This document shows positions 14,125 to 63,489 of a stretch of 64,000 bases of DNA, piece after piece. The stretch's first letter is position 1. Each line of letters opens with the position of its first letter. Made by a program: the position numbers and the translations under genes. Origin of the DNA: Tetracentron sinense (taxonomy: Eukaryota; Streptophyta; Magnoliopsida; Trochodendrales; Trochodendraceae); contig JABCRI010001446.1 in NCBI GenBank assembly GCA_015143295.1, positions 1 to 64,000 of the forward strand. Direction: 5' to 3'. A model generated the notes under the pieces. The model did not search any database. It was given only the letters and a program-made list of their open reading frames with translations, and was not told where the DNA came from.

Positions 14125-14695
14125 ACGAGTGTCGAACTCGTTGTGCTGTGAACAGTGCCAACTCGTGGTGCTGTGAACAGTGCCAACTCGTTGTGCTGTG
14201 AACAGTGCCAACTCGTGGTGCTGTGAACAGTGCCAACCCGTTGTGCTGTGAAGGGTACCAACTCGTTGTCCGTTGTGAATAGTATCAACCACATTGTCCA
14301 TTGTGAATAGTACCAAACACGTTGTTCGTTGTGAATAGTATCAACCACGTTGTCCGTTGTGAATAGTACCAAACACGTTGTCCGTTGTGAATAGTATCAA
14401 CCACGTTGTCTGTTGTGAATAGTACCAAACACGTTGTCCGTTGTGAATAGTATCAACCACGTTGTCCGTTGTGAATAGTACCAAACACGTTGTCCGTTGT
14501 CTTATGTACAGCATGCCTGTGGCGCTGTACAACGTACCCGTGGTGAGCTGCACGACGTACCCGTTGTCTGTTGCACAACGGATGCACAACGTATACGTTA
14601 TCAGAGTACGTCCTTAGCGCATAATCGAGCTACGTCCTTAGCGCATTACCGAGCTACGTCCTTAGCGCGTAACCGAGCAACGTCCTTGCCTACAG
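14125..14695 (-). repeat. U3 direct-repeat blocks of the B 5' LTR
   Basis: Same blocks as in the 3' LTR: CTGTGAACAGTGCCAACTCG units (more copies here), the alternating GTTGTCCGTTGTGAATAGTA pair to about 14500, and four TACGTCCTTAGCGCAT units at about 14605-14695. Unit numbers differ from the partner LTR, showing that these repeats change after insertion. Confidence 0.8.
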
Positions 14696-21266: not shown

Positions 21267-21452
21267 CCGATCGCTCGGTTCAATCAGCGATCGATCGGTC
21301 CATAACCGATCGATCGGTAGCTATCGCGCGGTCAGAAATTTTGTATGGGGAAATTTTCCAGAGAGTGAGTTTTTGACCGGTCGATCGGTCATAAACACCG
21401 ATCAATCGGTAGGCAACCGATCGATCGGTCATAACCGCCGATCGCTCGGTCT
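21267..21452 (+). promoter_or_regulatory. GATCGATC palindrome cluster in U3 of D
   Basis: A run of seven or more short near-palindromes, perfect ACCGATCGATCGGT alternating with forms such as ACCGATCGCTCGGT and ACCGGTCGATCGGT, separated by short spacers. In the LTRs with a clear TATA box (C, E, F) the same cluster lies 60-100 bp upstream, where upstream activator sites are expected. The arrangement suggests binding sites for a dimeric DNA-binding protein. The factor is unknown. Confidence 0.6.
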
Positions 21453-22429
21453 TCGTGTTTTTTTCAGAATTTTCATTAAGGGCTTTTTCGTCTTTTGGGG
21501 GTTAAACCCTTCCTCCTTAAGGCTTGCTCGAGCCTTTAGGGCTTCATTCACAGAACTTAAGGGATTTTGAGAGATAGAGAGAAAGGAGAAGGGGATTTGC
21601 AACTAGGGTTTTCCATTGGAGAAGAAATCAAAGGGGTTTAAGAACCCTAGCTCACCCCAACTCGAGTTGCTTCAAGTTCAAGGCTCCAGCTCGTGTGGGG
21701 ACTCATTCTCCAAGCTAGGGCAGCGATCCTACGGCGTTTTTGAAAAGGGCTTCTTCCCCAACTCAAGTCCCCTTAAAGCAAAGGCTTCCTCCTTCCAAAT
21801 AGAGCTTTTATTTCAAGGTTTCTTCAACATCAAGCCTTGATCTAAGGTTAGTACACTCTACTAACTTCCCTTAGCAATAATCTAGATTTTTTATTGTGAA
21901 ATGTGACTCTTGATAGTATGTTTTCTTCCTTACAAAATGTATCATCTTCACTAAATATAAACAAGATAAGAAAAAGGTATGGATGTGTGGATGGGATGTC
22001 GATTGAGGCGATTGGATGCCGTATGGATGTTGTGTGATGTGTGAAAAGGAAAATGAAAGATGGGCACTTTACAAATAACGAATGTACCTTGATGTCTTGA
22101 TGAAAAATACGCACTAAATAAGGGAAATAGAAGGACTAAGAAATGTGGCCCACCGGGTGTTTGATAAAATGACTAAACAAGGGATAAATGGACTTAATGA
22201 AGAAAATGGAAATAGAAATTGTGTAAATGTTCTTAGAAATGATAAATTGCTCAAATGTGCTATATGTTGCCTAAATTTTCATACCTCTATGTTAAAGATT
22301 GAAATGCCATAGTCATGTGATCCGCCCATTCAAGTATGTCATCATGATTACCACCATTGACAAGCACACAAGCACGCATGCATGCATGAAACCGGGTTTT
22401 CCAAGATTGTATTTGTATATGATGAAACA

Positions 22430-22765
22430 AGAACATGACAAGGAGGTTGGTAGCCCAGGAAGGGTGCTAGCCTCTGGCTCACAAGTGAAATGAAACAAGA
22501 ACATGACAAGGAGGTTGGTAGCCCCAGGAAGGGTGCTAGCCTCTGGCTCACAAGTGAAATGAAACAAGAACATGACAAGGAGGTTGGTAGCCCAGGAAGG
22601 GTGCTAGCCTCTGGCTCACAAGTGAAATGAAACAAGAACATGACAAGGAGGTTGGTAGCCCAGGAAGGGTGCTAGCCTCTGGCTCACAAGAGAAATGGAA
22701 CAAGAACATGACAAGGAGGTTGGTAGCCCAAGGAAGGGTGCTAGCCTCTGGCTCACAAGTATACA
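22430..22765 (+). repeat. Five-unit hairpin array in the D 5' LTR
   Basis: Five units of 68-69 bp. Each has arms GAGGTTGGTA and TGCTAGCCTC around a CCCAGGAAGG-type loop, then TGGCTCACAAG and a GAAACAAGAACATGACA spacer. Ten positions pair, three of them as G-T on the sense strand. The 3' LTR has six units. Confidence 0.8.
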
Positions 22766-23432: not shown

Positions 23433-23743
23433 TCTAGGCATTAGAGTCCATAGGGTCACTTAGATGATTGAACAAGGTATTAGAATCACCTTAGAGAGTT
23501 GTATTCCAAGTATAGACTAACAAGTTAGTCTTAGTCAAAATGGGTTGAACTTCAACCGAACATAGAGTCCTACGCTAGGAACACGGATTGTATATTATGC
23601 TATTGTGTTATATACCATGTGTACATTATTTGTGTTGTACTTATTAAATGTGCTTGATGAATATGTATTAAGTGAATTGCGAAATTGTACTAAATGCGTA
23701 TCCAAGTTAGACTCATGTTGTATTGTCGTTCTCAGGAGAAATC

Positions 23744-28554: not shown

Positions 28555-30965
28555 TGTAGCACCCCGGACTTTTTCATCCTTAATGAATAGCACCTTCGTA
28601 GCTAATTGGCCGTTTTTGTAGTCTAATTAATAAATAAGGAAGAAATCGGAAATTCCGAAACGTCAGAAATGTGCGTTTTCGAAAGACGAACCCAACGCAA
28701 GTTGAATCGTCGAAATCCGACGAGCGAGTCAAAAGATATGGTCAAAACAGTCCAGACATGTAGAGAACCGATCGCTCGGTTCAATCAGCGATCGATCGGT
28801 CCATAACCGATCGATCGGTAGCTATCGCGCGGTCAGAAATTTTGTATGGGGAAATTTTCCAGAGAGTGAGTTTTTGACCGGTCGATCGGTAGGCAACCGA
28901 TCGATCGGTCATAACCGCCGATCGCTCGGTCTTCGTGTTTTTTTCAGAATTTTCATTAAGGGCTTTTTCGTCTTTTGGGGGTTAAACCCTTCCTCCTTAA
29001 GGCTTGCTCGAGCCTTTAGGGCTTCATTCACAGAACTTAAGGGATTTTGAGAGATAGAGAGAAAGGAGAAGGGGATTTGCAACTAGGGTTTTCCATTGGA
29101 GAAGAAATCAAAGGGGTTTAAGAACCCTAGCTCACCCCAACTCGAGTTGCTTCAAGTTCAAGGCTCCAGCTCGTGTGGGGACTCATTCTCCAAGCTAGGG
29201 CAGCGATCCTACGGCGTTTTTGAAAAGGGTTTCTTCCCCAACTCAAGTCCCCTTAAAGCAAAGGCTTCCTCCTTCCAAATAGAGCTTTTATTTCAAGGTT
29301 TCTTCAACATCAAGCCTTGATCTAAGGTTAGTACACTCTACTAACTTCCCTTAGCAATAATCTAGATTTTTTATTGTGAAATGTGACTCTTGATAGTATG
29401 TTTTCTTCCTTACAAAATGTATCATCTTCACTAAATATAAACAAGATAAGAAAAAGGTATGGATGTGTGGATGGGATGTCGATTGAGGCGATTGGATGCC
29501 GTATGGATGTTGTGTGATGTGTGAAAAGGAAAATGAAAGATGGGCACTTTACAAATAACGAATGTACCTTGATGTCTTGATGAAAAATACGCACTAAATA
29601 AGGGAAATAGAAGGACTAAGAAATGTGGCCCACCGGGTGTTTGATAAAATGACTAAACAAGGGATAAATGGACTTAATGAAGAAAATGGAAATAGAAATT
29701 GTGTAAATGTTCTTAGAAATGATAAATTGCTCAAATGTGCTATATGTTGCCTAAATTTTCATACCTCTATGTTAAAGATTGAAATGCCATAGTCATGTGA
29801 TCCGCCCATTCAAGTATGTCATCATGATTACCACCATTGACAAGCACACAAGCACGCATGCATGCATGAAACCGGGTTTTCCAAGATTGTATTTGTATAT
29901 GATGAAACAAGAACATGACAAGGAGGTTGGTAGCCCAGGAAGGGTGCTAGCCTCTGGCTCACAAGTGAAATGAAACAAGAACATGACAAGGAGGTTGGTA
30001 GCCCCAGGAAGGGTGCTAGCCTCTGGCTCACAAGTGAAATGAAACAAGAACATGACAAGGAGGTTGGTAGCCCCAGGAAGGGTGCTAGCCTCTGGCTCAC
30101 AAGTGAAATGAAACAAGAACATGACAAGGAGGTTGGTAGCCCAGGAAGGGTGCTAGCCTCTGGCTCACAAGTGAAATGAAACAAGAACATGACAAGGAGG
30201 TTGGTAGCCCAGGAAGGGTGCTAGCCTCTGGCTCACAAGAGAAATGGAACAAGAACATGACAAGGAGGTTGGTAGCCCAAGGAAGGGTGCTAGCCTCTGG
30301 CTCACAAGTATACAAGTCAAGAACAAATCAAGACACGAAATACAAGACAAGACACGATACACATACATGAGTTTTACCGAGGTTTTTGCATTCATACACG
30401 CATGTCAAGATATGGCTATGTATCTTATGCTTTCACTATTGCTTTAAATTAATATCTTGTATTGCTCACTGTTGTTATGCTTTCGCTATTGTTATGGTTA
30501 GCTAGTAGTTTGTACTCGCTGAGTATTCCATGCTCAGCCGTACTTTTATGTCGGCAGGTACTGTGGATGTCCTCGACCCCGAGCCTTGGGTCAAGGAGGA
30601 GTATGTAGAGGAGAGGGAGCCACCTATCCCATGGCAGTCTCAGGAGGATGGGGACTTGGATGTGTGGCCATACCTCGACTACTGTTGAGAGGAGAGGATT
30701 AGAGAGTTCCTTTTGTATTTTGATAGGTGGGCATGTCCACCTTTACTTTGATTGTATGTGGTATATGTTAACTTGGAATACTATTTGGAGTTATAGAAGA
30801 AAAGAAAAGTTGGCTTACGCTTCCGCACTTATGTTTAGTTCCGCGCTCTGATTTTCATTGAATTATATTATGTTTAGCCTCTTGCATTACAGGATGGTTT
30901 GACAGGTACACGTAGTCACCTCTAAAGTATCCCTTAACTCCTAGGGGGTATTTTGGGGCGTGACA
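28555..30965 (+). repeat. 3' LTR of D
   Basis: 2411 bp, nearly identical to the 5' LTR. It has six hairpin units at about 29910-30310 instead of five, and it lacks one 21-bp part of the palindrome cluster. Palindromes lie at 28766-28932. Together the two length changes account for the 48-bp difference. Confidence 0.95.
30548..30688 (+). CDS. Small LTR-encoded frame, 46 aa (D, 3' LTR)
   Basis: Same 46-codon frame as in the 5' LTR, MSAG start, PWV core and LDYC end, with one visible difference in the core. In the 3' LTR it would lie in the terminal part of the transcript. Confidence 0.4.
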   Translation: MSAGTVDVLDPEPWVKEEYVEEREPPIPWQSQEDGDLDVWPYLDYC

Positions 30966-41189: not shown

Positions 41190-41860
41190 TTCTGTGAATA
41201 GTGCTGTGAATAGTGCCAACTCGTGGTGCTGTGAATAGTGTCAACTCGTGGTCGGTGAATAGTGCCACTCGTGGTGCTTGTGAATAGTGCCACTCGTGGT
41301 GCTTGTGAATAGTGCAAACTCGTGGTGCTTGTGAATAGTGCCACTCGTGGTGCTTGTGCCACTCGTGATGCTTGTGAATAGTGCCACTCGTGGTCCGTGA
41401 ATAGTGCCACTCGTGGTGCTTGTGAATAGTGCTACTCGTGGTGCTTGTGAATAGTGCAAACTCGTGGTGCTTGTGAATAGTGCCACTCGTGATGCTTGTG
41501 AATAGTGCCACTCGTGGTCCGTGAATAGTGCCACTCGTGGTGCTTGTGAATAGTGCCACTCGTGGTCCGTGAATAGTGCTACTCATGGTGCTTGTGAATA
41601 GTGCAAACTCGTGGTGCTTGTGAATAGTGCCACTCGTGGTCCGTGAATAGTGCCACTCGTGGTGCTTGTGAATAGTGCCACTCGTGGTCCGTGAATAGTG
41701 CCACTCGTGGTGCTTGTGAATAGTGCCACTCGTGGTGGCGTGAATAGTGCAACTCGTGGTGCCATGAATAGTGCCAACTCGTGGTGGCGTGAATAGTGCC
41801 AACTCGTGGTGGCGTTGTCAAGGGTGACGAACCCGTTGTCACGTCGTCTCATGTACAGCG
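41190..41860 (-). repeat. Expanded GTGAATAGTGCCACTCGTGGTGCTT array
   Basis: More than twenty imperfect units of about 24 bp combining GTGAATAGTGC with CACTCGTGGTGCT or CACTCGTGGTCC, in the U3 position. Long open frames here come only from the repeat period. The element B LTRs have a smaller block of related GTGAATAGTA units at the same place. Confidence 0.85.
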
Positions 41861-44620: not shown

Positions 44621-46344
44621 TGTCGCGACCCAAAACCCACCCTAGGAGTTAGAGTGAATCTTGGACGACTTACCATGATTTACTAGACTTGCTTGAAAAC
44701 CCATCCTGCAAAAACTCACAGAGCATATACAATAGAGGAAAAAAAATAGCGGAAACATACCCTAACATGGCACAGCGGAAGTCTAAGAGAACCTCTATGT
44801 AGCACCCCGGACTTTTTCATCTTTAATGAATGGCACTCTCGTAGCCAATTGGCCGTTTTCGTAGTGTAATTAATAAATAAGGGAGAAATCGGAAATTCTG
44901 AAACATCAGAAATGTTCGTTTTCGAAAGACGGATCCAACGCAAGTTGAATCGTCGAAATCCGACGAGCGAGTCAAAAGATATGGTCAAAGCAGTCCAGAC
45001 ATACAGAGCACCGATCGCTCGGTCCAGTCAGCGATCGATCGGTCCATAACCGATCGATCGGTAGCTATCGCACGGTCAGAAAATTTGTATGGGGAAATTT
45101 TCCAGAGAGTGATTTTTTGACCGGTCGATCGGTCAATAACACCGATCGCTCGGTAGGCAACCGATCGATCGGTCATTAACACCGATCGCTCGGTCTTCGC
45201 GTTTTTGCAGAAATTTCAGTAAGGGCTTTTTCGTCATTTGGGCATTTCACCCTTGCTTTATAAGCCTTGCACGAGCCTAAGGGTTTCATAAACCCTTAGG
45301 GCAGATATTTGAGAGAGAGTGGGAGAGGAGAAAGGGGTTCTAACCTAGGGTTTCATCTTGAGAGTGAATCAAGGGTTTAAACACCCAAGATCATCCCAAA
45401 AAGGGCGTGGATTCATCAAAACCAACCTCAAACTCGTGTGGCATTCCCATTCCAAGCTAGGGCAGCGATCCTACGGCATTTTGAAAGGGGTTTCTTCCCC
45501 AAATCAAGCCTTCTTCAAGTAAGGGTTCTTCCCTACCATTTGAGGTTCGATTTCAAGGTTTCTTCAAGGTCAAGCCTTGATTTCAAGGTTAGTACACTCT
45601 ACTAACTTCATTAGTGATAACCTTGATTTTTCTTCCTCAAATATGATGATTTTATATGTTGTATGTCCCTTTTTATTGAGTTGTGATGAAATCCCTATAA
45701 TAAATAAGATAAATGGATAAAGGTGTGGGAATGTGTGAATGGATGGTGGATTGTGGCGAATGGGTGCCGTGTGGGGTGATGTATGTAATGGGATGGATAA
45801 TGGTGGAAGGGCATTTTCAACATAATGAACATACCTTTGTGATGGATGAAAAACATGCACTAAGCAACTTAAATAAAAAGGCTATCATAGTGATGCTTAC
45901 CAAGTGTTTGAGAAAATGTTTAAATGATGATTTGAATGAGTGAACTTGAATTATAAAAGCATGCATTGAGTTATTCTTTCTAAAATGCCTATCTTGATCA
46001 AATGTGCTACATGTCATTTACATTTCCAGATGCTCATATTAAGAATTGAAATGCTATGCTCATGTGACCATCATACTCAAGTATGTCCTCATGCCTACCA
46101 CAATTTCTACACACACGCACGCATGCTTGCATGAACTGGGTTTATTTCACGAGTATTAGTGCATGAGAAATAAAACGAGAAACAAGCATATGTCAAGGAG
46201 GTTGGTAGCCCAGGGATGTGCGGGTGCTAGCCTCTGGCTCACAAGTTAAACGAACATGAATATCAAGGGTAGGGCATATCCCTAGGATATGTCATACCTG
46301 GCTCACAAGAAAACACGACGAGCAAGGATCAAGAAACATGGAAG

Positions 46345-46637
46345 GGTGTTAGTGTACTAAGACCAGGTACGGGCACTAACATCTGTTCCCCAACACGCAT
46401 GAAAGTATGCTAGTGTACTAAGACCAGGTACGGGCACTAGTGTATGTTTCCAAGACAAGCATGAAAGGATGTTAATGTACTAAGACCAGGTACGGGCATT
46501 AACATCTGTTTCCAACAAGTATGAGAGGATACTAGTATACTAAGACCAGGTACGGGTACTAGTATCTGTCTCCAAGCGATAATCAAGAAATATGGAAGGG
46601 TGATGATGTACTAAGACCAGGTACGGGCATTGTCATC
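46345..46637 (+). repeat. Five covarying hairpins in the E 5' LTR
   Basis: Stems at 46345-46383, 46406-46444, 46468-46506, 46528-46566 and 46599-46637. Each has a 10-nt arm, the constant 19-nt loop TACTAAGACCAGGTACGGG, and a 10-nt arm. Arms differ between units but always pair: GATGTTAATG with CATTAACATC, GATACTAGTA with TACTAGTATC, GGTGATGATG with CATTGTCATC. All ten positions pair in every unit, and the only imperfect pairs are six G-T pairs on the sense strand. Confidence 0.9.
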
Positions 46638-47013
46638 TGTTCCCAGGCAAACAAGAAAACTCACGAACAAGTCAACAAGAACATACGCATAATACTCACT
46701 CACGAGACAAGAACCGGGCAAGAACCTAGTACGTCCGTCCAGTTCATAGTTCGGGTACTAGCTAAACCAGAACAAAACAAGGCAGGTGTGATTTCCACGA
46801 TACGAGAACAAGTCATGACTTTTGGATACGAATTTACAATGCATGAGTTGATGTTCATGATTCACTTACGTGGTTATGTTGTTTTAGCTTCCGCGCTCTG
46901 AATTTGTATCTCTTGGGTGAACTGTATCATGTATTACATGTTATGCTATTGTTATTACTATTGTTAGTTAGTAGCTTGTACTCGCTGAGTATTCCATGCT
47001 CAGCCGTACTTTT

Positions 47014-47106
47014 ATGTCGGCAGGTACATTATGCAGCATAGGAACTCTTGCCCCTTGGATCGAGGCAGCTCGGGGTGAGCAGGAGATTCTTCGGATGGTT
47101 ACCTAG
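47014..47106 (+). CDS. Small LTR-encoded frame, 30 aa (E, 5' LTR)
   Basis: MSAGTLCSIGTLAPWIEAAR followed by ten more codons and TAG. It keeps the MSAG start and a PWIE echo of the PWVEEEY core, but the acidic tail is largely lost. Possibly a reduced form of the frame in other families. It follows the CTGAG...CTCAG hairpin near 46984-47004. Confidence 0.35.
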   Translation: MSAGTLCSIGTLAPWIEAARGEQEILRMVT

Positions 47107-47411
47107 ATATTAGGAGACGTGGCGTATGGCCAACGGTTGGGATGAGCGAGAGAGAGAGACATGTATTTTGGGATTTCCTTGGGGACTTTTCGTGTGAGCT
47201 TGAGTGGGTGACTCAAGCATTTGTACTCTTGTGATTATTGTATTCTATCCAGCTATTGATGATGTGGACACTTGGAATTACATTTATGTTAAAGGAAATT
47301 TTAGTCTCTCTATTTTTGCATGCCTTGTTATGCTCTCGCCGGTTGACTAAGGATAGGTCACGTCGCCAAGGTATCCTAACTCCTAGGGGGTATTTTGGGG
47401 CGTGACAGAAG

Positions 47412-47423
47412 TGGTATCAGAGC
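47412..47423 (+). other. Primer-binding site of E
   Basis: TGGTATCAGAGC, four bases after the LTR. The following 40 or so bases are nearly the same as in D's leader, further evidence that E is related to D. Confidence 0.92.
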
Positions 47424-48718
47424 CTAGGCATTAGAGTCCCTAGGGTCACTTAGATGATTGAACAAGGTATTAGAATCACCTTAGAGAGTCGTATTCCAAG
47501 TGTGGACTAATCCCTTAGTCCTTGTCCAGAACAGGGTGATTTCAACTGAAGGTACTGTCCATTTACGCTAGAAAACCAAAAATTTTATATACTTATACGA
47601 TTATGTGTTGAATTGTTATGTGGTATTATGTGATATATATATATATATATGGTGTGCATATTATATGTTATATGCTAAGTGAAAACCAATGCTTGATGAA
47701 TGAGTTTCCCAATTAGATCCATGAGTGATGTGACATTCAGGCTAGAGGCTAGCCTATGTGTTAGTTAACAAGGGGATGGAGGATCCCTCGTCATATGCTG
47801 TGTTATTAGGTTTCTATAGGGAATTGTTTCCCAAGAGAGGCTATAGGATGGTGCTAGGTCTTACAAGTCTAGTGTATTTAGAGTCGTTGCGACAACAGGG
47901 ACGTGGGTTTTGATATATATACTAGTATGCGTATCTAGTGTAAATTGATTGGTTAAACTGTACTTAATGTGTCTTACACAACAAATAAACATAACCCGTA
48001 CATCACGATATGATGATGAATCCATGTAAGTTCATGTAACCCCTCAACTAGTAGGAGCATATATAGACATCAATATATTTTAACCGACTCAGGGATGCTT
48101 GATGCAGGCTTCTAAGTACAGATGCGCATTATTGCAGCACGTCCTAGACTCGGTGCTCAGTCCAAAATAAGAAATACATTATAACTTCAAGGATAATCAT
48201 ACATTTCATACATAGCATGCACTCCATTTATCTCATGAGCATCATCAATAACATGCACGTCATATATCACATAAGCATTATGCACGGCATAAGCATCATG
48301 CATCACATATGCATCATACATATTCATACATGGCACGTATTGCATACATGGCATGAACATCACATGCATATCATAGACACCGTATGCACATCTCATGAAC
48401 ATCATTTAGATTTTAGAAGCATCATGCAAGTCACCAGATTAAGAGGATTTTACTTAAATTAACTCAAACAAGTGAACAAATCATTAGTCCTAATCTTAAG
48501 CTGGGTAATGTCTTAGGTATGAAATCGGTTAATACCTTAACCAAGCGTGAAACTTAGCTTCGCTAGCAACCTCAGAGTGTACCATTATACTATGGTGTGC
48601 ATATCTTGATGTATGTTCTATGCTTCGATAAATACCTGCTATTATGGAAATGCTATGTTTGAATGATGATAGTATCCGAGTTAGACTCATGCCTTGCTAT
48701 CGTCCCCAGGAGTAAACC
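47424..48718 (+). other. Long leader of E
   Basis: About 1.3 kb from primer site to gag, roughly 1 kb longer than in D. It contains an AT microsatellite near 47633-47650 and a CAT-rich low-complexity part at 48180-48425 (ATCATACAT, GCATCATGCA phrases). It ends CGTCCCCAG before the gag ATG. No convincing frame. Confidence 0.6.
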
Positions 48719-49924
48719 ATGAGACGTGGCAGTCGGGGTCGTGGATACCACACTAGGAGAGGTGGAGCGTCTCCTCCTCCATTGGGGGATGAGCAGCCTG
48801 ACCTCACCCAGGTCTTGGGATCTATAGCAGAGACACTAGCGATGCTTGCCGCTAGGCAGTCCTCTACCCCTACTCCTACTGCGGCACTTGTGCCTACTCC
48901 TACACATCATGCCACGGGGATAGAGGCATTTCGGAGGATGAGGCCCCCGGCATTTTATGGTGGCACCGACCCATTGGTTGCAGAAGCATGGGTCAGGCAG
49001 TTGGAGAAGTTGTTCTCCGTCTTGATACCTACGGAGGCAGAGAAAGTTGCATGGGCCGCCTTTATGATGGAGGGTGAGGCCGATCACTGGTGGAGGTCCG
49101 CCATCAGAACGAGAGACTTGGCTCGAACGGGTCAAGAATGGACTTGGGAAGAGTTCCTAGAGGTTTTCTACAAGAAATACTTCCCGGTAGGAGTTAAAGA
49201 AAGGAAAGAACTAGAGTTCATTACCTTGGAGCAGGGGAACATGACAGTGGCAGAGTACGAAGCCAAGTTCTCCGAATTGTCAAGGTTCGCCCCATATCTG
49301 ATAGCCACAGAGGCAATGAAGGCCAGGAAATTTGAAAGGGGATTGCGGGCCTACATCAAGGACAGGGTCTCTATGTTCAGGCATGAGACCTACGCCGAAG
49401 TTGTGGATAAGGCCCAGTTGGCAGAAACGAATATGGAGGAATTCTACAAGAGGAGAGAAATGTTGAGAGGCCAGTCCAGTGGCTCGACAGAGTTGGAGAG
49501 GAGGGCCAGAACGACTCCATACCAGTTCTCTGGACATACACAGGTGCAGAGCCATTCTCTTACACCCCAGGCCCCTCGCCCTACTACTATGCAAGTTACT
49601 CGACAGGTTCTACCAGCATCTTCTACATCTACGTTCGGGTTTTGCAATTACTGTAAGAGGAAACACTTAGCTGGGGATTGTCGAGCTCTTACGGGAGCAT
49701 GTTACCATTGCGGTGACACGGGACACCGGATTAGAGCTTGTCCAAGCCGACGGTCACGCTCTCAAACCCAGGGGACTAGACTCCCAAATCGACTGCCTAC
49801 GCAACCGGAATCACTCCAAGCTTCGAGGCCCCAACAGCCCATGCAGCCTCCACGTCAAACTAATGAGGGTCAAGTTTTTGCTATCTCAAGACAAGGTGCT
49901 CAGGCACCTAATGATGTTGCATGA
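48719..49924 (+). CDS. gag: Gag of element E, intact
   Basis: 401 residues: MRRGSRGRGYHTRRGG, FRRMRPPAFYGGTDPLVAEA, WAAFMMEGEADHWWRSA, FYKKYFPVGVKERKELEF, FAPYLIATEAMKARKFERGL, and two zinc knuckles, CNYCKRKHLAGDC and CYHCGDTGHRIRAC. Very similar in plan and sequence to Gag of D. Its stop falls right after NDVA, the place where the other copies have the GT of the gag-pol spacer. An open gag without pol suggests that the protein itself, or its RNA, is what this element needs to keep. Confidence 0.92.
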   Translation: MRRGSRGRGYHTRRGGASPPPLGDEQPDLTQVLGSIAETLAMLAARQSSTPTPTAALVPTPTHHATGIEAFRRMRPPAFYGGTDPLVAEAWVRQLEKLFSVLIPTEAEKVAWAAFMMEGEADHWWRSAIRTRDLARTGQEWTWEEFLEVFYKKYFPVGVKERKELEFITLEQGNMTVAEYEAKFSELSRFAPYLIATEAMKARKFERGLRAYIKDRVSMFRHETYAEVVDKAQLAETNMEEFYKRREMLRGQSSGSTELERRARTTPYQFSGHTQVQSHSLTPQAPRPTTMQVTRQVLPASSTSTFGFCNYCKRKHLAGDCRALTGACYHCGDTGHRIRACPSRRSRSQTQGTRLPNRLPTQPESLQASRPQQPMQPPRQTNEGQVFAISRQGAQAPNDVA

Positions 49925-50231
49925 ATGCCGAGAGATAGAAATTTTGGTTGTCAAGGATGACTTACTGTTGTGTTTAACTATGTTGCGTACATGTATACCC
50001 ATATTATGTTATGTTAAGGACCTTTCCTCATTTTTCGTGGGTGAGTAGTGACTTGAAAAGTCTAAGTGCCTTGCCAACAAGCAAGTGTCTGGTCTTGTGT
50101 CAATTGAGGGAAGATTCGTGTGTCCTTAGTATAACTAGGTGACAGAGTTCAAGTTGTAGTGAGAGAGGTGCCCCCGCCTGATTAGGCATCATCCAAATTT
50201 CGAGGACGAAATTTTTGTAAGGGGGGGAGAA
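49925..50231 (+). other. Post-gag segment and polypurine tract of E
   Basis: About 300 bp with no pol homology. The last part, from about 50192, has the AATTTCGAGGACGAAATTTT block and a GGGGGGGAGAA tract before the LTR, as in D. So the pol region is absent between the end of gag and the 3' end sequences. Confidence 0.85.
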
Positions 50232-52841
50232 TGTAGCACCCCGGACTTTTTCATCTTTAATGAATGGCACTCTCGTAGCCAATTGGCCGTTTTCGTAGTG
50301 TAATTAATAAATAAGGGAGAAATCGGAAATTCTGAAACGTCAGAAATGTTCGTTTTCGAAAGACGGATCCAACGCAAGTTGAATCGTCGAAATCCGACGA
50401 GCGAGTCAAAAGATATGGTCAAAGCAGTCCAGACATACAGAGCACCGATCGCTCGGTCCAGTCAGCGATCGATCGGTCCATAACCGATCGATCGGTAGCT
50501 ATCGCACGGTCAGAAAATTTGTATGGGAAAATTTTCCAGAGAGTGATTTTTTGACCGGTCGATCGGTCAATAACACCGATCGCTCGGTAGGCAACCGATC
50601 GATCGGTCATTAACACCGATCGCTCGGTCTTCGCGTTTTTGCAGAAATTTCAGTAAGGGCTTTTTCGTCATTTGGGCATTTCACCCTTGCTTTATAAGCC
50701 TTGCACGAGCCTAAGGGTTTCATAAACCCTTAGGGCAGATATTTGAGAGAGAGTGGGAGAGGAGAAAGGGGTTCTAACCTAGGGTTTCATCTTGAGAGTG
50801 AATCAAGGGTTTAAACACCCAAGATCATCCCAAAAAGGGCGTGGATTCATCAAAACCAACCTCAAACTCGTGTGGCATTCCCATTCCAAGCTAGGGCAGC
50901 GATCCTACGGCATTTTGAAAGGGGTTTCTTCCCCAAATCAAGCCTTCTTCAAGTAAGGGTTCTTCCCTACCATTTGAGGTTCGATTTCAAGGTTTCTTCA
51001 AGGTCAAGCCTTGATTTCAAGGTTAGTACACTCTACTAACTTCATTAGTGATAACCTTGATTTTTCTTCCTCAAATATGATGATTTTATATGTTGTATGT
51101 CCCTTTTTATTGAGTTGTGATGAAATCCCTATAATAAATAAGATAAATGGATAAAGGTGTGGGAATGTGTGAATGGATGGTGGATTGTGGCGAATGGGTG
51201 CCGTGTGGGGTGATGTATGTAATGGGATGGATAATGGTGGAAGGGCATTTTCAACATAATGAACATACCTTTGTGATGGATGAAAAACATGCACTAAGCA
51301 ACTTAAATAAAAAGGCTATCATAGTGATGCTTACCAAGTGTTTGAGAAAATGTTTAAATGATGATTTGAATGAGTGAACTTGAATTATAAAAGCATGCAT
51401 TGAGTTATTCTTTCTAAAATGCCTATCTTGATCAAATGTGCTACATGTCATTTACATTTCCAGATGCTCATATTAAGAATTGAAATGCTATGCTCATGTG
51501 ACCATCATACTCAAGTATGTCCTCATGCCTACCACAATTTCTACACACACGCACGCATGCTTGCATGAACTGGGTTTATTTCACGAGTATTAGTGCATGA
51601 GAAATAAAACGAGAAACAAGCATATGTCAAGGAGGTTGGTAGCCCAGGGATGTGCGGGTGCTAGCCTCTGGCTCACAAGTTAAACGAACATGAATATCAA
51701 GGGTAGGGCATATCCCTAGGATATGTCATACCTGGCTCACAAGAAAACACGACGAGCAAGGATCAAGAAACATGGAAGGGTGTTAGTGTACTAAGACCAG
51801 GTACGGGCACTAACATCTGTTCCCCAACACGCATGAAAGTATGCTAGTGTACTAAGACCAGGTACGGGCACTAGTGTATGTTTCCAAGACAAGCATGAAA
51901 GGATGTTAATGTACTAAGACCAGGTACGGGCATTAACATCTGTTTCCAACAAGTATGAGAGGATACTAGTATACTAAGACCAGGTACGGGTACTAGTATC
52001 TGTCTCCAAGCGATAATCAAGAAATATGGAAGGGTGATGATGTACTAAGACCAGGTACGGGCATTGTCATCTGTTCCCAGGCAAACAAGAAAACTCACGA
52101 ACAAGTCAACAAGAACATACGCATAATACTCACTCACGAGACAAGAACCGGGCAAGAACCTAGTACATCCGTCCAGTTCATAGTTCGGGTACTAGCTAAA
52201 CCAGAACAAAACAAGGCAGGTGTGATTTCCACGATACGAGAACAAGTCATGACTTTTGGATACGAATTTACAATGCATGAGTTGATGTTCATGATTCACT
52301 TACGTGGTTATGTTGTTTTAGCTTCCGCGCTCTGAATTTGTATCTCTTGGGTGAACTGTATCATGTATTACATGTTATGCTATTGTTATTACTATTGTTA
52401 GTTAGTAGCTTGTACTCACTGAGTATTCCATGCTCAGCCGTACTTTTATGTCGGCAGGTACATTATGCAGCATAGGAACTCTTGCCCCTTGGATCGAGGC
52501 AGCTCGGGGTGAGCAGGAGATTCTTCGGATGGTTACCTAGATATTAGGAGACGTGGCGTATGGCCAACGGTTGGGATGAGCGAGAGAGAGAGACATGTAT
52601 TTTGGGACTTCCTTGGGGACTTTTCGTGTGAGCTTGAGTGGGTGACTCAAGCATTTGTACTCTTGTGATTATTGTATTCTATCCAGCTATTGATGATGTG
52701 GACACTTGGAATTACATTTATGTTAAAGGAACTTTTAGTCTCTCTATTTTTGCATGCCTTGTTATGCTCTCGCCGGTTGACTAAGGATAGGTCACGTCGC
52801 CAAGGTATCCTAACTCCTAGGGGGTATTTTGGGGCGTGACA
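50232..52841 (+). repeat. 3' LTR of E
   Basis: 2610 bp, same length as the 5' LTR, about six substitutions. TATAA at 50693-50697, covarying hairpins at 51779-52071, small frame at 52448-52540 (same 30 codons). Confidence 0.93.
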
Positions 52842-61832: not shown

Positions 61833-63489
61833 TGTAGAGACCCCGAATCTTTTTCATGTTTTTACTTCATTGTATTAGGGGTATTATAGTCTTTATGATG
61901 TTTTGATGTTTATTGTATTATATATTTATTTGGTGTGGTGTGAACTAGGCTTAATCAAACTTGTAACGGAGGGATGTCATATCACACCCTAAACTTTAGG
62001 AAGCTCTAGTTTTGGCACCGTTTACTGGAATTGAGTGATTCTTGAACCATTAGAAAGGTGTTGGAACCCTCTTCGAAGTTCATGTTTAATGTTTTTCCTT
62101 ATTTTGAGTTTAAGCTAAGTCAATGGTGGGTTTTATTTAATGGAGATGCAGATCAGTCAACTTTGGGGACAATTTAGTCTATTAATTAAGTGGAATTTAG
62201 AAATTCTAAAATGCCAAAAATGTTCATTTTCGAAAGACGAATCCAACGCAGGTTGAATCGTCAAAATCCGACGAACGAGTCAAAAGTTATGGCCAAAACA
62301 GTAAAGCGGGTCAAAAATCTATAGGCAACCGATCGCTCGGTCAGAAGTAGCGATCGATCGGTCCAAAACCGATCGATCGGTATCTATCGACTGGTCCAGA
62401 ATTTTGTATGGGGAAAATTTCCAGAGAGTGCTTTTTTGACCGATCGCCCGGTCAAGAGCACCGATCGCTCGGTTGAGAACCGATCGATCGGTCATAACCA
62501 CCGATCGCTCGGTCTTTCGTGATTTTTACAGAATTTTAGTATGGGCTTTTTGGTCTTTTTGTTCTCAGACCTTGAGGCTATAAATAGGGGGTCCTACTCG
62601 AAATATTAAAATACTCCACCTAGTTCTAACCTAATTTGGCAAAAAGGGGGAGAAACCCTAGGGTTTTGAGAGAGGATTGCTTGGAGAAGAAGGAGGTTGC
62701 TAGAAGATTGAGAGGAAAGCTTGGAGATCGTCCTCAAAGCTTCTCCAAATCGTCTCGGGATCGTTTTGTATCCAAGGGAAGGATTCCTAAGGTCGATATA
62801 CTATCCTAATCAACTTTATTTTAAGGTTTTGTGAATGTTAAGATGCTAGGAATGGTAGAAATAGATGTTTGATGCATTTTCCCTAATTTTCTAAGAAGCA
62901 AGCTAATTATGGATGGATATGTGGATTGGAAATGTGGATTAAATGTGGATAGAATGTATGGAGGATGGGAAATGTATGGAGGATGGGATTAATTTGTGGA
63001 TGTGGATGAATATATGGATTGTATGGATGGAATTATGATTTGATGAATGCATGAAAAGGTAGAGAAACAATGGATTCATATTATGTGTACTCAAGGTGTT
63101 TGTGAAAATGTCTGTGAGAATAAATGCTATGATACTTTTATGAAATGGTGGTAAATGGATTATAAATGATGTTAAGAATTATGATAAGAAATATATATGT
63201 GATTGTTTGTTAAGTATACTTAATTTCTTGCATGGGAATTGATAGTCGGGAAGGTAAGAACTTAGAGGAACATCTCTCAAACCGGGAATTCTCTAACTAT
63301 TTGGTATGGGACATATAGTGGAGTTTCCATGGTGGGAAATCGGAATCTAAGCAATTACCGACTCGAACATTAATTTCGACACTTAAGCACATAAGCACGT
63401 GTATGTTAAGATAAGAGTCTCACAAGTCACACATGTGGACCACAAGCATGAGCATGGCATACGTATGACATTCTGAATAAGCATAAGCA

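Follow-up and report, generated by a model that had tools for sequence, protein, structure and literature searches.

Little is known about how plant LTR retrotransposons tell their genomic RNA apart from mRNA. A tandem array of five hairpins inside the LTR of one such element, located in the 64-kb stretch of DNA analyzed here (the window), raises the question of whether the hairpins are selected as RNA and, if so, what they might serve. The window is densely filled with LTR retrotransposons of the plant Ty3/gypsy kind. The element carrying the array, designated E, is framed by the following features:

44798..52841, plus strand: element E, an LTR retrotransposon delimited by self-comparison, with the target duplication CTCTA flanking both sides
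47412..47423, plus strand: PBS-like sequence TGGTATCAGAGC, which we take to be a primer binding site of the initiator-Met tRNA type
48719..49924, plus strand: gag ORF of E, encoding capsid and zinc knuckle (Pfam; ORF list)

The LTRs of E measure 2,610 bp each (44798-47407 and 50232-52841) and share 99.77% identity in self-comparison. They differ at six positions, none of which lies in the array; this low number points to a recent insertion, and the variation among the hairpin units is consequently older than the insertion. Pfam searches detected Retrotrans_gag, Ty3_capsid, and zinc knuckle domains in the gag ORFs of three window elements, the Gag of E containing a CCHC zinc knuckle. As gag is the sole ORF of at least 150 aa within E, the element was taken as gag-only, borrowing pol. 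In the sister element F, Pfam identified reverse transcriptase, RNase H, and the integrase zinc-binding domain (H2C2) in pol; a Chromo match in F reached 21.8 bits and thus stays below the Pfam cut-off of 25.1, E itself being without pol. For E and F, we considered a group of plant Ty3/gypsy chromoviruses, presumably the Tekay-like one. Non-autonomous TR-GAG elements are defined by an LTR pair, a target duplication, a primer binding site, and a gag ORF in the absence of a pol ORF. E possesses the LTR pair, the CTCTA duplication, the PBS-like site, and the gag domains, and no other ORF of at least 150 aa. Judged by its sequence, E is a gag-only LTR retrotransposon of the Ty3/gypsy type, and its family is represented here by this one element.

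The array itself was resolved into five units by alignment and folding, and self-comparison revealed its counterpart in the second LTR:

46340..46389, plus strand: hairpin unit 1 (16 bp, one bulged G, loop TACTAAGACCAGGTACGGG)
46401..46450, plus strand: hairpin unit 2
46463..46512, plus strand: hairpin unit 3
46523..46572, plus strand: hairpin unit 4
46594..46643, plus strand: hairpin unit 5
51774..52077, plus strand: exact counterpart of the five-unit array, within the 3' LTR of E

Each unit comprises 50 nt, and the alignment among the five is gapless. In the common fold, a bulged G separates an outer helix of four pairs from an inner helix of twelve, which is capped by a 17-nt terminal loop; leaving the closing U-G pair open enlarges this loop to 19 nt. 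The first-pass annotation had described an exact 19-nt loop in all five units, flanked by 10-nt stem arms. The loop was indeed found as exact copies of TACTAAGACCAGGTACGGG at 46355, 46416, 46478, 46538, and 46609 and five more times in the 3' LTR of E, while no antisense copy was detected. The arms pair as described; the true stem, however, is longer and reaches 16 bp: the 10 bp already noted are flanked by two wobble pairs, and beyond a bulge of one base follows an outer helix of 4 bp. The arms of this outer helix (GGAA/TTCC, GAAA/TTTC, and GAGA/TCTC) extend pairing and covariation beyond the 10-bp stem. Linkers of 10-21 nt, rich in A, separate the hairpins.

Pairing is complete in the sense RNA. 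The 10-bp stems had been claimed to pair in all 50 cells with six exceptions from the Watson-Crick rule, all G-T and none A-C, and our count gave the same figures (50/50 paired, 44 Watson-Crick, 6 G-T, 0 A-C), including the one stem position occupied by T-A, C-G, and A-T in different units. Over the five 16-bp stems, 80 of 80 cells are paired. Two-sided compensatory changes affect seven of the 16 stem pairs and one-sided changes, always to G-U, another four, the remaining five being invariant. RNAalifold, run without a supplied structure, returned the same 16-bp stem and placed two additional C-G pairs beneath an apical loop of AGGUAC. The arms differ by 30% on average, and all 19 loop columns are invariant; the chance of no variable column falling in the loop, if variable columns were placed anywhere, is 1.1e-5. 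A covariance model scored the ten known E units at 75.7-81.2 bits, these being matches by construction or identity. Beyond them, it retrieved weak antisense echoes of three units in both LTRs and one chance-level match elsewhere.

Several null models were applied to the coordination between the arms. Among all 120 reassignments of the 3' arms, the real one alone yields 50 paired cells (runner-up 49, mean 43.4). When the same number of changes per arm was introduced independently, an average of 36.3 and a maximum of 46 cells remained paired, and none of 200,000 runs reached 50, in line with the earlier proposal that the units changed in a coordinated manner and did not drift as ordinary duplicates. 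Out of 500 shuffles, none matched E in paired cells or covariation score, three matched its count of two-sided pairs, and 179 its count of pair types. Sliding the partner by 1-3 columns lowered the paired cells to 32-54%. These numbers have to be read with the relatedness of the five units in mind, as duplicates do not render the stem cells independent events. Seven other tandem arrays of the window, aligned and folded likewise on either strand, gave 0-1 two-sided pairs compared with seven in E. These controls, selected by us out of 71 rows, are unequal: two have two units, two have three, and one has only 4 variable columns. Fair controls, about as variable as E, are the array at 41204, whose 12 units have 31 variable columns, and the one at 14222, whose 4 units have 22; neither contains any two-sided pair. 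Independent drift of duplicates was ruled out on the basis of the arm-swap and independent-mutation nulls together with the control arrays.

Fold energy by itself is moderate and not striking. Single E units gave z-scores of -1.45 to -3.24, and the 471-nt region in sense orientation -2.10, with 4 of 100 shuffles folding equally well; several 120-nt windows inside the array were near zero. The antisense of the whole array region folds at shuffle level (z +0.87; 83 of 100 shuffles equally good). In antisense units, the six G-U cells of the 10-bp stems turn into A-C and are broken, and the consensus energy changes from -19.4 to -11.9. Antisense RNA as the folded molecule was dismissed on these two grounds, shuffle-level folding and the loss of the six wobbles. 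All seven two-sided pairs are kept on both strands; the case for RNA therefore rests on the G-U cells and the folding energy. Other RNA identities were also considered: no Rfam family, retrozyme and hammerhead included, matched the window at the gathering threshold, which ruled out an Rfam family or ribozyme, and a tRNA gene was rejected for the array.

Comparison of the array with the remaining LTRs of the window led to related hairpins, two of which lie upstream of unit 1:

46197..46235, plus strand: E0, an upstream hairpin of the F/A type (GGAGGTTGGTA / TGCTAGCCTCT), from hairpin comparison
46267..46299, plus strand: H2, another hairpin type, also present in B-type and C LTRs, from arm-set pairing

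Stems of the F/A type, having the same build and similar arms, occur as five and six hairpins in the LTRs of F, six in A, and one (E0) in E; the hairpin inventory of the window comprises at least those given here. The two LTR arrays of element F (22422-22760 and 29902-30309) differ in carrying 5 versus 6 hairpin units, and the following 657 bp differ at one position. Across 13 hairpins (E0, A1-A6, F, and E1-E5) and 11 positions, we counted 106 Watson-Crick pairs, 37 G-U, 0 A-C, and 0 other; for this count, the single G inserted in A5 was omitted, and the F hairpins, identical in their arms, were counted once. When duplicates were merged, nine different arm sets remained, five of them being the E units and the other four coming from E0, A, and F; all 99 of their cells pair in sense, compared with 76 in antisense, and 4 of 100,000 arm shuffles attained 99. 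All 13 hairpins counted keep a G-U wobble at the base of the stem, and one position is occupied by G-C, G-U, or A-U depending on the hairpin, which fits the prediction of stepwise RNA evolution. Most E units differ from the F/A type on both sides at two positions (G-C versus T-A and A-T versus G-C). Among E0, A, and F, changes are one-sided, the C-G state at one position departing from T-G on the 5' side. Damage is seen in array A, namely the inserted G in A5 and, in the inner helix, one C-A and one gap; its alignment contains two sense A-C cells. The fixed 19-nt loop was seen in no element other than E. Loops of the sister families span 12 to 17 nt, with only CCAGG...GG common to most copies. 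H2 displays the same G-U-only bias as the E array, pairing in 54 of 56 cells over four arm sets (14 G-U, 0 A-C, 2 other; the degraded copy D left out). Two observations do not agree with this pattern: five array regions of the B, C, and D types, folded without shuffles, all gave a lower energy in antisense than in sense, and no hairpin array was seen at the matching place of G-type LTRs, around their CTCACAAG motifs.

Taken together, the two-sided covariation, the one-sided changes restricted to G-U, the strand difference in folding, the control arrays, and the sister families lend good support to the original claim of pairing in the sense RNA with a selected loop. On this sequence evidence, we consider the array very probably a set of selected sense-RNA hairpins, and probably a functional one.

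Further repeated signals were recorded in the same LTR region:

46238..46245, plus strand: CTCACAAG, sense-strand motif (LTR scan)
46302..46309, plus strand: CTCACAAG, second copy in the same E LTR (LTR scan)
46984..47004, plus strand: hp3 GCTGAGTATTCCATGCTCAGC, followed about 13 nt on by TCGGCAGGT at 47017-47025, a possible acceptor (LTR scan)

The 8-mer CTCACAAG is present in at least one sense copy in each of the 11 LTRs scanned (e.g., 22478-22759 and 46238-46309), whether hairpins adjoin it or not, and in no antisense copy in any of them. In F, A, B, and C, it stands behind many of the hairpins, and G- and I-type LTRs contain it as well; the linkers after E units 1-5 are devoid of it. YTCACAAG was matched 67 times in the window versus 5.5 times expected; one B-type LTR accounts for 13 of these matches through a distinct 25-bp array. 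This array (41201-41811, minus strand) consists of 13 TTCACAAG copies and lies in the promoter-side part of that LTR. The hp3 core CTGAGTA was found in 11 of 11 LTRs scanned and the downstream GGCAGGT in 10 (Bc being without it); the outermost pair of hp3 shows a two-sided change (A-T) in G3 but reads A-C in Bb, C, and I, a further observation out of line with the hairpin pattern. Perfect CGATCGATCGGT inverted repeats at 45032-45060, 21288-21316, 28789-28817, and 62351-62379 lie on the promoter side of LTRs, fold strongly on both strands, and are probably DNA-level elements. Searches for the loop TACTAAGACCAGGTACGGG and the hp3 hairpin in viral contigs, for a longer hp3 pattern in prokaryotic genome contigs, and for relatives of a 642-aa piece of F pol in both returned no match. 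As these collections consist of viruses and prokaryotes, this absence says little.

The possible role of the array depends on its position relative to the promoter and to splice sites, for which the following candidates were assigned:

45259..45264, plus strand: TATA-like box at LTR +462, the putative promoter
45585..45593, plus strand: donor-like AAG/GTTAGT, junction 45587/45588, near the end of an AUG-free stretch, the putative splice donor
45699..45704, plus strand: AATAAA with a GT-rich stretch after it, where R may end
48707..48718, plus strand: acceptor-like CAG/GA directly before the gag ATG, junction 48709/48710, the putative splice acceptor

Five of the 11 LTRs have a TATA-like box at this place (E; G1 at +468; G2 at +481; G3 at +478; and I, whose start is cut, at +380), while F, A, the B-type LTRs, and C lack one. 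In E, the array lies about 1.1 kb downstream of the box, and transcription would start about 30 nt past it. For Retrosat2 of rice, the map in the excerpted source likewise puts the start near the 5' end of the LTR (U3 1-244) and assigns 2 kb to R (PMC3485330). The longest AUG-free stretch in E, F, and A (546-556 nt) begins upstream of the box, spans the TATA-like position, and ends shortly after CAAG/GTTAGT or TAAG/GTTAGT. Donor-like sites were also noted in B-type LTRs (CAAG/GTCGGT), in C (CAAG/GTTGGA), and, within the longest AUG-free stretch, in G1 and G3 (CAAG/GTAGAT); G2 lacks a good donor. All six promoter-to-donor stretches evaluated (E, F, A, G1, G2, and G3), with starts set by the TATA-like box or by alignment to E, are without AUG. 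The stretches of Bb and C were chosen as AUG-free, making zero a result by construction, and were not counted. Each stretch is unremarkable alone, since 132-513 of 2000 dinucleotide shuffles were also AUG-free. Within 300 nt past the donor, 14-23 AUGs follow in all six LTRs counted (E, F, A, Bb, G1, and G3).

At the other end, five elements (E, F, the B-side element, and those after two G-type LTRs) show an acceptor-like YTCAG/GA or CCCAG/GA before the gag ATG, or before a start reading like it, positioned below a shared GTTAGACTCATG or a one-letter variant thereof; a sixth match of the pattern, inside a pol ORF, is due to chance. Equivalents of the donor/acceptor arrangement of E were noted at 23733, 20032, 34884, and 11849 (minus). 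The combination of a donor near the AUG-free end with an acceptor before the gag ATG suggests a spliced gag mRNA in these elements. From the assumed start, the unspliced leader of E measures 3,429 nt and contains 124 AUGs, and joining donor and gag acceptor would give a leader of about 304 nt without any AUG. Use of the TCGGCAGGT acceptor alone would leave 61 AUGs before gag, and this second acceptor-like site complicates the splice model. From donor, acceptor, and AUG distribution, we infer a leader intron that encloses the array, the primer binding site, and what remains of the LTR.

Based on this placement, we propose that the 5' leader of E genomic RNA would display five selected stem-loops separated by the short A-rich linkers. 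Selection would keep the pairing of the stems, whose sequence is free to change, and a partner would read the sequence of the loop. Splicing from 45587/45588 to 48709/48710 would provide gag mRNA with its AUG-free leader and take out the array together with the primer binding site, so that the hairpins would be present only on unspliced, reverse-transcribable RNA. The array may thus act as a multivalent recognition platform picking out unspliced genomic RNA. We rate the chances as evenly balanced that it marks this RNA as a candidate signal for packaging or export. Concerning its use, the position suggested within the unspliced leader of a gag-encoding element makes packaging, export, or Gag binding, all named in the first-pass annotation, plausible. 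Packaging mediated by Gag/nucleocapsid is ranked first because E encodes its own zinc-knuckle Gag, even so as a tentative assignment that we hold to be possible rather than likely; nuclear export or protection of the unspliced RNA comes second and appears unlikely.

Matched arms do not necessarily require selection on RNA, as quasi-palindrome correction can yield matched two-sided changes in inverted repeats. Templated mutation of this type during reverse transcription or replication would agree with the two-sided pairs being equally visible on either strand. Copying at the DNA level, however, should erase wobbles, yet G-U occupies 37 of 143 cells with no A-C among them, an invariant G-U sits between covarying pairs, and the invariant loop is left unexplained; we assign this process a low probability. 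Lower still is the one given to a DNA-level signal, a cruciform or transcription-factor site similar to the palindromic repeats of Sirevirus LTRs. It could refer to the inverted repeats being located in an LTR and to the CGATCGATCGGT palindromes near the 5' end of the same LTRs, but folding is seen for the sense strand of the array and not for its antisense, and the putative start lies upstream of the array.

The other two alternatives accept the RNA and assign it a different task. As a translation or splicing control, the hairpins would shield upstream AUGs, promote ribosome shunting, or separate the donor from acceptors for partial splicing. The number of AUGs in the unspliced leader, which renders simple scanning to gag implausible, speaks in favor of such a control, as do the long structured leaders with uORFs described for plant pararetrovirus pregenomic RNAs in the excerpt available (PMC5902531). 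Nevertheless, the exact repetition of a 19-nt loop in five units suggests sequence-specific binding and not bulk structure, and the array region itself contributes ten AUGs, leaving this explanation rather improbable. An export or intron-retention element, by which the hairpins would recruit host export factors and let intron-containing genomic RNA leave the nucleus, as the mouse IAP RTE and MusD MTE do, is compatible with the suggested location within the leader intron. The MTE, on the other hand, is described in the accessible part of the source with pseudoknot and kissing-loop motifs (PMC12786077), and the comparison of E with the mouse elements concerns the proposed role; we regard export as an unlikely explanation of the array.

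Returning to the recognition platform, its most specific form would be a modular, psi-like genome-recognition device of a plant LTR retrotransposon, made exclusive to unspliced RNA by the leader intron, which we put forward as a speculative and rather doubtful extension. Tandem duplication would set the number of identical docking hairpins, and compensatory change would renew the stems while the loop is kept. Given that sister-family loops differ, loop divergence could set packaging specificity, and the gag-only element would have retained, in E0, a single hairpin like those of the autonomous family. With its small size, its repetition, and its constant loop, the hairpin lends itself unusually well to testing, as stem-preserving changes should be tolerated and loop changes should not. 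Furthermore, covarying tandem units in LTRs offer a handle for seeking such signals in other plant genomes from sequence only. Among the literature matches listed, none reports, in the excerpts available, tandem hairpins that covary within a plant LTR, and we consider the array new as a variant of known leader RNA signals.

With respect to known systems, E shares LTRs and a gag-only interior with the TR-GAG non-autonomous LTR elements. In barley BARE1/BARE2, likewise, Gag originates from a spliced subgenomic RNA and complete and defective families coexist; according to the excerpt, the spliced BARE1 RNA makes Gag and the unspliced one is packaged (PMC3735527). Different from E, the spliced-out segment comprises 104 nt and lies at the end of gag instead of the leader, and stem-loops are not mentioned in that excerpt. 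The IAP RTE and MusD MTE, as presented in the part of the source available (PMC12786077), are also RNA elements on unspliced transcripts of LTR elements; they stem from mouse. Sirevirus LTRs resemble E in bearing many symmetric repeats inside a plant LTR. Their motifs, however, are described in the excerpt as palindromes that contain a CGG-CCG core and precede the TATA box (PMC2829016), whereas E has long-loop hairpins downstream of its TATA-like box and no CGG-CCG core in its unit arms.

The retroviral psi combines several stem-loops in the 5' leader, and the E array, belonging to an element that encodes a zinc-knuckle Gag, would lie past the splice donor and hence occur only on unspliced RNA. 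Unlike psi, E presents head-to-tail copies of one hairpin and one loop in varying copy number, and its array belongs to the LTR and precedes the primer binding site.
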